Of a stretch of 34,745 nt of DNA, positions 15,459 through 17,669 are shown piece after piece (the first letter of the stretch is position 1; each line of letters opens with the position of its first letter). The stretch lies in the NCBI GenBank assembly GCA_028817305.1, contig JAPPPX010000088.1, positions 1-34,745 on the forward strand, given 5' to 3'. Under the pieces are notes generated by a model, which searched no databases, was not told the origin of the DNA, and saw only the letters and a program-made list of their open reading frames with translations. The stretch is from Gammaproteobacteria bacterium (GTDB lineage Bacteria; Pseudomonadota; Gammaproteobacteria; Porifericomitales; Porifericomitaceae). Both the position numbers and the translations under genes were made by a program.

Positions 15459-15707
15459 CGAGTTTCCGAGGTGCAATTCCGCCGAATTTTGCGCCTGGCC
15501 TGTTTTCTTTCTATCTGAACGCCTTGCGCGCGCACGTGGTGCCCGGAGAAAGAGAAATCAACTTCGTTACCAGACCACATTGCCGATGAATGGCGAATTG
15601 AAGTCGATGAATCATATTTCGGCGCCCGTCGCCTCAAAGACCGAAGCGGGCATGGTGCATTTGGCAAAACCGCCATGTTCGGCTTGTTCAAACGCAATGA
15701 GCAGGTG
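15459..15707 (+). pseudogene. IS1595/ISXO2-type transposase, N-terminal remnant
   Basis: In one frame (codons starting at 15459) the DNA reads RVSEVQFRRILRLACFLSI, then a stop at 15516. After a degraded stretch, the same frame from 15561 reads through IADEWRIEVDESYFGARR and KTAMFGLFKRNEQV. EVDESYFGARR (Asp and Glu at 15606-15611) and GKT-x-x-FGLFKR are hallmark blocks of IS1595-family (DDE_Tnp_IS1595/ISXO2-like) transposases. The helix-turn-helix part that should join the two blocks is missing or scrambled, and homology stops at about 15707. An 87-residue open frame from ATG 15445 overlaps this in another frame and is not considered real. Its C-terminal half is found beyond the cassette at 17482-17669. 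Confidence 0.85.
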
Positions 15708-15742: not shown

Positions 15743-16780
15743 ATGAGCGAACGCGACGACCTGACGGCGTTAATCGCCGACACGATTAAGGATTATCGTG
15801 CCGGAAAGCCGTTCGCGCCTACGCCCGACCACGTTGACCGTTGGGTATGCCAATTCGACGAGATCGTCCAAGTGCCGCTGTTGCGGGAGATGGATTTTGT
15901 GCTGAAACGCACCTACTTCTCCTCCGAAAGAGTTACTGATTTTTTAAAGACAGCGATTACCACCAAAAAATGGGCTGGCGATAACCCTTGCGAGTTCTGG
16001 AAGCGGGCTAATTTTCTTAACATCCAATTGGGCGGAAACAGTCAGCGCGAAATGCTGACATTGTTCGATAAACTGCTCATTGAGCAGTGCGGCTATAGCA
16101 ATGAGAGTTGCGGTGGTGGCGATAATTTTATATACCTTGATGACGCTGTTTTTACGGGCAACCGTGTGCTGAAAGACCTCAAGAATTGGATTAAGGGAGA
16201 TGCTCCGAGCAAAGCAACCGTCCACATAGTGTCCATTGTGTTACATAAGGGGGCGGATTATTATGTCTCGCGTGAGATTCACACCATTGCCGACGGTGTG
16301 GGAAAAACCATTCATGATAAATGGAGTCCCTTCCTCAAATTAGAGACACGAAAAGCCTACAGCGACAGGGCGGATGTGCTGCGGCCGACGGTTATTCCGG
16401 ACGACCCCGATGTGCGAGAGTATGTCGCGGGCATGCGCCATAAGCCAACGATGCGTAGCCCGGGAAATATCGGGGGAAACAAACTGTTTTCAAGCGATGA
16501 AGGGAAGGCGTTGCTTGAACAAGAGTTCCTTAAGGCAGGGGCAAAAATTCGCAAAACGTGCCCGAATTTGGGTGAATATATGCGGCCTCTTGGTAACATG
16601 CTCCTTGAGGAGCTTGGTTTTGGCTCGCTTTTCGTCACCTACCGGAATTGCCCGAACACTGCGCCTTTAGCGCTTTGGGTCGCTGACCCGTGGTATCCTC
16701 TGTTTCCGCGAACAACCAACCGGCAGACAGAGGACATACGTTCTATATCCACTTTAATTCCGTTTGAGGGAAGCGAATGA
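15743..16780 (+). CDS. Phosphoribosyltransferase-fold protein (PRTase-CE-like, conflict-system type)
   Basis: 345 residues, no signal peptide or membrane segment. The type I PRTase PRPP-binding motif is intact: FIYLDDAVFTGNR at about 129-141, with Asp133-Asp134 and Thr138-Gly139. The N-terminal part (HVDRWVCQFDEIVQVPLLREMDFVLKR, about 28-54) and the C-terminal block (RNCPNTAPLALWV, near 314-326) do not fit housekeeping PRTases such as Apt, PyrE or PurF. They resemble the PRTase-CE group reported from prokaryotic conflict loci; that name is from memory and unverified. The substrate is unknown. GGAGGA lies 12 nt upstream of ATG 15743, and the start overlaps the stop of the frame running out of the transposase remnant. 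It is coupled to the NADAR gene by ATGA. Lower GC than its flanks points to horizontal transfer. Confidence 0.75.
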   Translation: MSERDDLTALIADTIKDYRAGKPFAPTPDHVDRWVCQFDEIVQVPLLREMDFVLKRTYFSSERVTDFLKTAITTKKWAGDNPCEFWKRANFLNIQLGGNSQREMLTLFDKLLIEQCGYSNESCGGGDNFIYLDDAVFTGNRVLKDLKNWIKGDAPSKATVHIVSIVLHKGADYYVSREIHTIADGVGKTIHDKWSPFLKLETRKAYSDRADVLRPTVIPDDPDVREYVAGMRHKPTMRSPGNIGGNKLFSSDEGKALLEQEFLKAGAKIRKTCPNLGEYMRPLGNMLLEELGFGSLFVTYRNCPNTAPLALWVADPWYPLFPRTTNRQTEDIRSISTLIPFEGSE

Positions 16781-17418
16781 GTTTGAGCCAAGAACGGCAA
16801 TATTCCCGGCCCGATAGTGTCATCTTCCACAAGACGAGGGAGCGGTTCGGTGGGCTGTCCAACATGGCGGGCGGCTTCCCGTTGCGCGTGAATGGCGTCC
16901 GCATCTTAACGTCGGAGGCGCTCTATCAAGCGTGCCGTTTCCCGAAGATGCCGAAGGTGCAAAAAGAGATTATTGCACAAAAGAGTCCGATGACGGCAAA
17001 AATGAAAAGCAAACCGCACCGCGTTAACTCGCGACGGGATTGGGAGCGTGTTCGCGTTGAAGTTATGCGTTGGTGTCTGCAGGTGAAGCTCATCCAAAAC
17101 TGGGAGAAATTCAGCGGGCTGTTGCGTGAAACAGGGGATCGGAACATTGTCGAGTATTCCCGAAAAGACGATTTTTGGGGCGCAAAGCCGGCGGACGACA
17201 ACACTCTTGTCGGAAAAAATGTGCTGGGGCGTTTGCTGATGGAGTTGCGGAAAAATGCTTTGGGAGGGAGTTTCACGTCGTCGCAGACGGCATCACCACC
17301 TGAAATTGACGATTTTTTACTCTACAACGAGCCCATCCGACCCGTCGTTGCCGACATTGCCCCAGTAATGGTGGAAACAACGTCTATTCCCAGACAGATG
17401 GAGCTGTTTTCAGCCTGA
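16777..17418 (+). CDS. NADAR-domain protein (YbiA-like, predicted N-glycosidase/ADP-ribose-processing)
   Basis: 213 residues; the NADAR domain spans about 10-163. Family blocks: LSNMAGGFPLRVNG, TSEALYQACRF with Glu47, KSPMTAKMKS, RRDWERVRVEVMRW, DDFWG with Trp134-Gly135, and the closing NVLGRLLMELR. Known NADAR proteins hydrolyse N-glycosidic bonds in riboflavin-pathway intermediates or remove ADP-ribose from guanine in DarT-type systems; which applies here is unknown. A low-complexity tail (about 166-213) ends in ETTSIPRQMELFSA, and part of it is echoed in frame just after the stop codon. ATG 16777 overlaps the PRTase stop (ATGA), with GAGGGAAG just upstream. The two genes almost certainly act together. 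Confidence 0.88.
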   Translation: MSLSQERQYSRPDSVIFHKTRERFGGLSNMAGGFPLRVNGVRILTSEALYQACRFPKMPKVQKEIIAQKSPMTAKMKSKPHRVNSRRDWERVRVEVMRWCLQVKLIQNWEKFSGLLRETGDRNIVEYSRKDDFWGAKPADDNTLVGKNVLGRLLMELRKNALGGSFTSSQTASPPEIDDFLLYNEPIRPVVADIAPVMVETTSIPRQMELFSA

Positions 17419-17460
17419 AACATTACACCGGTAACGGGGGAGACGATGTCTATTCCCATG
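17353..17460 (+). repeat. In-phase degenerate duplication of the NADAR tail across its stop codon
   Basis: Codons 17353-17394 read DIAPVMVETTSIPR; 66 bp later, codons 17419-17460 read NITPVTGETMSIPM, then TAA. Nine of 14 residues agree and the core GTCTATTCCCA is identical. The second copy lies in the same frame immediately after the TGA at 17416-17418. It suggests that the gene once ran on to 17463, or that the tail was partly duplicated. Confidence 0.7.
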
Positions 17461-17481
17461 TAACCACATTATGCTTAAAGC

Positions 17482-17669
17482 CATGAGATCGCGTGCGGGC
17501 GCATCCACATCAACGGTATATAGGACTTTTAGGGGGTTCGCCAAAAGTCGCTTGGCAAATTCGGTGGCATGAGCCGCGAGATATTCTACTTACACTCTGA
17601 AAGAGTGTGAGCCCCCACTTCAATCATTGCCACGAAAAGGTCTATGAAATCCTGATGTTAGCGGTGTGA
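17482..17669 (+). pseudogene. IS1595/ISXO2-type transposase, C-terminal remnant
   Basis: The frame starting at 17482 reads HEIACGRIHINGI, a stop (TAG 17521), DF, another stop (TAG 17527), then GVRQKSLGKFGGMSREIFYLHSE. After a frameshift, FNHCHEKVYEILMLAV ends at TGA 17667-17669. The blocks GR-x-HINGIE-x-FW, LAKF-x-GM and FYLHLKE..FNHRHE are the C-terminal signature of IS1595-family transposases; the two stops fall where Glu and Trp normally stand. It is the counterpart of the fragment at 15459-15707. A short stem-loop (ACACTCT/AGAGTGT, 17592-17608) lies inside it. Confidence 0.82.

Follow-up and report, generated by a model that had tools for sequence, protein, structure and literature searches.

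Background

The closest described relatives of the locus analysed here are the DS-32 proteins, for which NCBIfam holds two equivalog models, NF053875 (DS32_1_antiphage) and NF053876 (DS32_2_antiphage), and whose E. coli pair is named anti-phage in RefSeq. The DS numbering of these labels agrees with that of DefensePredictor (Science 2026; PMC13092281), a study in which, according to parts of the paper, 42 of 94 cloned E. coli units were phage-protective. The string DS-32 is absent from its main text, which speaks of NADAR domains in section 6 and of a PRTase in the legend of Fig. 4, and in the parts of the main text covered here no mechanism is stated for DS-32.

Members of both protein families occur in other described systems. 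Passages of PMC11125620 and PMC11543638 present NADARs as erasers of guanine ADP-ribosylation, working as antitoxins versus DNA-guanine ADP-ribosyltransferases, and in the DarT1-NADAR and YarT-YbiA toxin-antitoxin systems a NADAR likewise stands beside a partner of the ribosyl-transfer type. Type III-A retrons feature a PRTase effector, while type I restriction-modification and Hma systems enter the comparison through operons into which relatives of the pair are built.

The pair studied here lies in the window, that is, the whole analysed stretch of 34,745 nucleotides of a gammaproteobacterial contig. An earlier, sequence-only reading had proposed it as a conflict or defence cassette inside a broken insertion sequence.

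Identity and setting of the gene pair

The cassette is made of two genes on the forward strand, a PRTase-CE family phosphoribosyltransferase-like protein of 345 aa (15743..16780) and a YbiA-type NADAR protein of 213 aa (16777..17418), coupled by an ATGA stop/start overlap (16777..16780, forward strand). Both ORFs, and their coupling, are confirmed from the sequence where the sequence-only reading had placed them, and the family assignments hold in Pfam, the first protein matching PF24390 (5e-53; 181 bits, cut-off 27) and the second PF08719 (5.2e-25; 89 bits, cut-off 35.1). An imperfect 39-base direct repeat (79%) was also seen, at 17354-17392 and 17420-17458: part of the code for the NADAR tail is repeated, in a decayed form, just 3' of the stop codon.

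Against the NCBIfam models, the PRTase reaches 386 bits with NF053875 (cut-off 250) and the NADAR 283.8 bits with NF053876 (cut-off 240), in a two-gene unit with the PRTase first, as in DS-32. As both proteins exceed the curated cut-offs, the pair appears to be a divergent member of a known defence system: we consider it very probable that it is a mobile anti-phage system of the DS-32 type, the link to DefensePredictor passing through the NCBIfam and RefSeq names. The earlier statement that no experimentally described system consists of exactly these two genes is thus not supported, since both are listed as DS32 anti-phage proteins in NCBIfam and RefSeq. The pair itself is already known; what is new are the fusions and the tail described below, and the mechanism which they suggest.

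Shared with DS-32 are the two families, their order and the scores above the curated cut-offs. There are also differences: identity to the E. coli pair is about 26% for the PRTase and 48% for the NADAR; the window copy sits in a broken IS1595 amid housekeeping genes, whereas the E. coli loci are in lambdoid prophages; and the best matches of the window by identity carry a NADAR::HsdS fusion, whereas the E. coli pair is solitary.

Base composition sets the cassette apart, as had been claimed: GC content is 50.6% in the PRTase gene and 53.0% in the NADAR gene versus 66.8% in the whole window, and GC3 is likewise lower, 56.9% and 62.6%, compared with 84.7% in lptD and 85.9% in the RND gene. Horizontal movement of the pair is supported by this composition. 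Chromosomal housekeeping genes flank the pair, with pdxA, surA and lptD to one side and HlyD and the RND gene to the other; the pair occurs once in its own genome, and Rfam gave no match anywhere in the window.

Pieces of one IS1595-family transposase border the pair, both on the forward strand. The upstream remnant (15588..15707) corresponds to residues 60-98 of a Psychrobacter homologue (tblastn E 3e-9), the Pfam model DDE_Tnp_IS1595 (PF12762) scoring 15.6 bits on it, under its cut-off of 27. The downstream remnant (17467..17611) corresponds to residues 143-192, with stops and a frame change inside: residues 143-187 align at 17467-17595 (tblastn E 1e-4), and LKECE (residues 188-192), in another frame, is a five-residue match. 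Residues 99-142 found no match within the 2.5 kb searched, and the cassette occupies that gap. A tblastn search with the IS fragment returned nothing at 1e-5; a looser one gave IS1595 transposases, with E values from about 4e-5 upwards among the matches listed. As the upstream stretch has no second copy in its own genome, there is no empty site for comparison. Inverted terminal repeats could not be assigned, with the best candidate arms agreeing at 14 of 20 bases, and a repeat search gave no pair flanking the element. The idea of a defence cassette within a broken IS is supported by the DS32 matches, the composition and these remnants taken together.

Predicted folds and conserved residues

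The AlphaFold2 model of the PRTase (pLDDT 92.9, pTM 0.89) finds its best structural matches in the PDB, by VIA-align, among UPRT, PyrR and OPRT, the top one being to UPRT (Z 9.7, 121 residues, 2.7 A); of the best 50 matches, those with titles naming a function are PRTases, PyrR, UMP synthase and PRPP synthetases. Foldseek returned no match at E <= 0.001 for this protein, and the best of the PDB sequences, a nickel regulator, matched at E 0.009. On the strength of the VIA-align Z and of the families named in the match list, the modelled protein has a type I phosphoribosyltransferase fold. No housekeeping family was matched.

The PRPP-loop sequence quoted in the sequence-only reading, FIYLDDAVFTGNR, is present and begins at residue 129, the loop-like motif spanning residues 129-141 (16127-16165, forward strand). 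Within it D133, D134 and G139 are invariant in 63/63 rows of alignment A3, which holds 63 of 69 dereplicated PRTases (59 of those 63 form alignment A4), and this invariance suggests catalysis. The canonical PRPP loop ends in T/S. Here, of the 120 rows that remain without the partial L105, 118 have [ST] before the G, and 119 end in R, K or H: a basic residue lies where T/S is expected, and PRPP may therefore not be the ligand.

For the NADAR, the model (pLDDT 92.4) matches the folds of YbiA (2b3w, E 5e-9) and of an ADP-ribose-bound NADAR (8bau, E 7e-7). In the P. nicotianae protein, as given in section 12 of PMC11543638, contacts to ADP-ribose include E43, K50, W89, R93, E125, D130 and W133; by our alignment, from which the correspondence of numbers derives, the window equivalents are E47, R54, W89, R93, E126, D131 and W134. 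The Glu of the YbiA subfamily (E125 of P. nicotianae NADAR) is therefore E126, invariant in 57/57 sequences of alignment A5, which comprises 57 of 60 dereplicated NADARs. A Glu of the last helix (LLMELR) had been tried as the YbiA-defining residue and was rejected, as section 12 of the same paper points to the equivalent of E126, and the LLMELR Glu varies.

One contact departs from the described enzymes: in place of the conserved Lys at the ADP-ribose phosphates (K50/K95), R54 is invariant in 57/57 DS-32 NADARs, other NADARs having K at this position in all 7 readable sequences out of 9. The K95R variant of E. coli C7 NADAR, according to passages of PMC11543638, kept guanine-ADPr hydrolysis in vitro and lost cell rescue from DarT1, so that R54 may mean another substrate or a weaker removal. 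In both enzymes, then, basic residues particular to the family lie close to where phosphate contacts are expected, and they may serve one and the same ligand.

With respect to the DarT1-NADAR and YarT-YbiA systems, the window NADAR retains the catalytic Glu. Its partner, in contrast, has the fold of a PRTase rather than an ART and matches only PRTase-CE in Pfam, and DS-32 NADARs feature R for the phosphate-binding K and, in many cases, a clamp-like tail. As to type III-A retrons, the similarity of their PRTase effector to the window PRTase is a weak one at the profile level; the partner in the window is a NADAR, no Rfam match is found there, the tested flanks are LptD, SurA, PdxA, HlyD and RND, and none of the genes annotated here is named a reverse transcriptase.

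Distribution of the pair

A PRTase profile, run against a single genome of each species, yielded 158 relatives, the best 80 of which were kept; 32 loci came from a scan of viral contigs, and plasmid, E. coli and further genome loci brought the collection to 121. The best 80 of the 158 relatives cover 8 phyla, 59 of them belonging to Pseudomonadota. The pair is thus not unique to this genome, being recovered in many genomes and viral contigs. A NADAR gene follows close behind the PRTase in 117 of 120 loci, genome, viral, plasmid and E. coli ones pooled; of the three others, one has a gap of 1082 bases, and in two the locus stops no more than 140 bases from the PRTase. In one set of 398 genomes of the phylum, the 3 above the NADAR cut-off are the same 3 above the PRTase cut-off, and 33 further genomes have a NADAR below cut-off and no PRTase match. 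Pairing of the two genes is nearly obligate.

Closer to home, among 114 searched genomes of relatives the PRTase is found in the window's own genome and is absent from the other 113. No PRTase relatives were found in phage records at 1e-5. In E. coli, relatives of the pair occur in 62 or 63 of 5426 genomes, depending on the query. The three loci examined there are lambdoid prophages, with the pair lying between replication gene P and ybcN/ninE; two are intact, and L011, the third, has a broken methyltransferase gene and an IS in between and a PRTase without its start. Broken copies are few and point both ways: E. coli genomes with a broken PRTase and a whole NADAR exist among the matches listed, a viral contig (L125) has a NADAR cut to 92 aa beside a whole PRTase, and one further genome (H93) showed only a 458-base PRTase piece. 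No toxin/antitoxin asymmetry emerges from them.

On the repressor side of the E. coli prophages L010 (1-2300) and L012 (709-2310) lies either a HipA/DUF3037 pair split by IS3 or a gene of the SIR2 family; HipA and DUF3037 are the domains of DS-6 in DefensePredictor (parts of PMC13092281). These two prophages may hold further defence genes. Of the 32 solitary genome loci, 31 (all but the near-copy L084) gave 116 neighbouring genes; among these, a tally with no background rate, matches to Kiwa (KwaA/KwaB), HerA, QatA, DpdE, RES-domain proteins and type I methylases are found along with other genes. No metabolic operon recurs as a setting in the locus layouts, where most neighbours of solitary pairs are unnamed.

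Fusions with restriction-modification and Hma proteins

In 43 of the 121 loci the NADAR is fused to an HsdS-like part: 5 of the 32 viral contigs and 38 of the 80 genome loci, the latter share being biased to window-like relatives because these 80 are the best of 158. The fused ORFs are 663-734 aa long, and towards the C-terminus they are similar, by BLAST versus reference proteins, to a type I specificity subunit. HsdM lies upstream in 41/43 and HsdR downstream in 41/43 of these loci, the 4 exceptions falling at contig ends. A gene of the GmrSD-N type is found between hsdM and the PRTase in 14/43 fusion operons, including L045 (6164-7960), where it was recognized by Pfam, the rest by BLAST. 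Hma genes accompany the pair in 8 loci, 4 of which feature a NADAR::HmaB methylase fusion. PADLOC or Pfam bore out one example of each kind, namely the specificity subunit (L016), HsdM (834 bits), HsdR, HmaA, HmaB, HmaC and GmrSD. In the loci examined it is always the NADAR that is joined to HsdS or HmaB, never the PRTase.

Type I restriction-modification and Hma operons thus incorporate relatives of the pair as NADAR::HsdS or NADAR::HmaB, whereas BLAST found no hsd or hma homologues beside the window pair. In the open literature on NADAR with HsdS or restriction, including parts of PMC13092281 and PMC9503650 and leaving most subscription papers outside its scope, we found no mention of the NADAR::HsdS fusion.

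A quick PRTase tree was built for 89 of the 121 loci, cut PRTases, lengths outside 300-400 aa and copies more than 93% identical being excluded. The fusion label takes 10 changes on it, at least 6 forced by starred branches, with several long branches flagged by the program; the pair therefore moved into or out of restriction operons repeatedly, a tree of this kind being unable to tell fusion gain from fusion loss. Of the 30 rows in the window's branch, 22 are HsdS fusions (support 92, not starred). A Nitrococcus fusion comes closest to the window both in identity (61%) and in path, while the solitary L056 is its sister row (support 84).

A clamp-like motif in the NADAR tail

The tail of the window NADAR, modelled at low confidence (blocks from residue 191 at pLDDT 60-64 in the AlphaFold2 model), contains QMELF at residues 207-211 (17395..17409, forward strand), a candidate sliding-clamp-binding motif of the QxxLF type. 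Similar motifs, such as QMELF, QSLSLF, QPSLFEQ and QGSLFG, are found in the tail of many solitary NADARs and in the linker of most HsdS fusions. The bacterial clamp-binding consensus, as given in passages of PMC12309361 and PMC4549789, is QL[S/D]LF, more generally QxxLF. According to the former, QMGLF of B. subtilis DnaE bound DnaN about 20-fold more weakly than the PolC motif did, and a match to the consensus does not, therefore, ensure strong binding.

Of 52 dereplicated tails, 15 contain exact QxxLF, where 5000 shuffles gave 0.32 on average and never more than 3; 20 contain the looser Q.{2,3}[LM]F, the other 32 being without it, where 1000 shuffles averaged 0.76 and reached at most 4. Within the last 45 residues, a span not length-matched to the tails, the looser pattern occurs in 15 of 1430 further ORFs from these loci, a control from simple ORF calling that includes spurious ones, and in 0/9 non-DS-32 NADARs. 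By architecture and with no dereplication, the motif is present in 37/43 HsdS fusions, 14/14 lambdoid, 24/49 solitary, 0/8 Hma-type and 0/3 other loci; these counts cover 117 of 119 NADARs, L056 and L125 being excluded as the tail pattern was not found in them. A looser motif used earlier had also caught part of the folded domain, and was replaced by counts past that segment. From the motif, we infer that the tail may bind DnaN, the sliding clamp.

Proposed mechanism and alternatives

PRTases catalyse phosphoribosyl transfer between PRPP and a base. As NADARs erase and PRTases transfer phosphoribosyl groups, the most economical arrangement would be a PRTase which makes an adduct and a NADAR which removes it. 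Starting from the gene pair, the predicted folds, the conserved residues, the fusions and the tail motif, all of them observed, we infer the use of PRPP, the adduct, the toxic partner, the binding to the clamp and the trigger. During infection the PRTase, with PRPP, would attach phosphoribosyl, or a group related to it, to a base, either in DNA or among free nucleotides, and this adduct would block phage replication; the NADAR would act as an N-glycosidase cutting base-ribose adducts, so keeping host DNA clean. In many solitary pairs its tail would hold it on DNA by binding the clamp, and in relatives its fusion with HsdS or HmaB would do so. Since fusion to HsdS or HmaB affects the NADAR and in no case seen the PRTase, and the motif, scanned for in NADARs, lies in the NADAR as well, removal on DNA is suggested, and the NADAR keeps E47, E126, D131 and W134 of the ADP-ribose site. 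Against the scheme count the basic end of the loop, the failure of K95R to rescue cells from DarT1, the lack of toxin/antitoxin asymmetry and the housekeeping flanks of the window copy; the tail motif, moreover, is absent from 32 of 52 tails even in its looser form and from all 8 Hma-type loci, and need not bind strongly. As a whole, the mechanism is offered tentatively, as a reading that is somewhat more doubtful than not.

The same association of the NADAR with DNA-handling proteins, or with the motif, would fit a system in which the roles are exchanged, the NADAR being the effector, an N-glycosidase whose targets would be bases in phage DNA, modified or not, located at the fork or at HsdS/HmaB sites, and the PRTase-like protein a sensor or regulator of a phage-altered nucleotide or of PRPP. 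The atypical PRPP-loop-like motif and the presence of PyrR, a regulator with a PRTase fold, among the structural matches go in this direction; yet the invariant D133, D134 and G139 (63/63) suggest catalysis by the PRTase, and known NADARs, in the passages of PMC11125620 and PMC11543638, serve as erasers or antitoxins where guanine-ADPr is concerned, or remove riboflavin intermediates. We regard such an exchange of roles as rather unlikely. Quite unlikely, in our judgement, is abortive infection by metabolite depletion, where the PRTase would consume PRPP or break down nucleotides or NAD, and the NADAR would clear or finish the products: it agrees with the PRTase effectors known, from part of the literature, in type III-A retrons, whose PADLOC models match the window PRTase weakly (4e-7), and with the action on small ribosyl compounds that is known or proposed for NADARs (parts of PMC11125620), but it leaves the fusions with HsdS and HmaB and the clamp-like tail unexplained.

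The operon context suggests a further role, by analogy with PrrC, which acts beside EcoprrI when phage blocks restriction. In hsd and Hma operons the pair might guard restriction-modification, acting when a phage blocks it, and solitary copies such as that of the window would have escaped to act alone. Both the HsdM upstream and HsdR downstream in 41/43 HsdS fusions and the position of the window in a branch where 22 of 30 rows are HsdS fusions (support 92) would suit such a backup; however, solitary copies include both the E. coli pair, with its anti-phage label, and the sister row L056 (support 84), and fusion gain and loss look alike on the tree, so that we hold this account to be improbable. 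Far less credence is given to the idea of a decaying relic, or of a nucleotide-repair operon with no defence role in this host: the broken IS, the housekeeping flanks, the single copy and the absence from 113 of the 114 searched genomes of relatives would agree with it, but both ORFs are whole, the invariant residues are kept and the scores are well above the family cut-offs.

The preferred reading, an adduct made by the PRTase and removed by the NADAR, can be carried one step further, since both the fusions and the clamp-like tail suggest that the pair acts on DNA. The pair would then confer a PRPP-dependent immunity based on ribosylation of nucleic-acid bases, with the NADAR eraser steered to self DNA by the clamp, when solitary, or by the sequence-reading subunit of restriction-modification, when fused, and a mark written and erased would separate self from phage; this extended form we deem unlikely as it stands. 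Should the proposed chemistry prove right, phosphoribosyl transfer to bases would, to our knowledge, be new to anti-phage immunity, and a second layer acting by base ribosylation would be built into some restriction operons.

A fusion of another kind was noticed in L075 (10057-11724), where, about 1.1 kb past the PRTase, a NADAR is joined to a DUF4365 domain.
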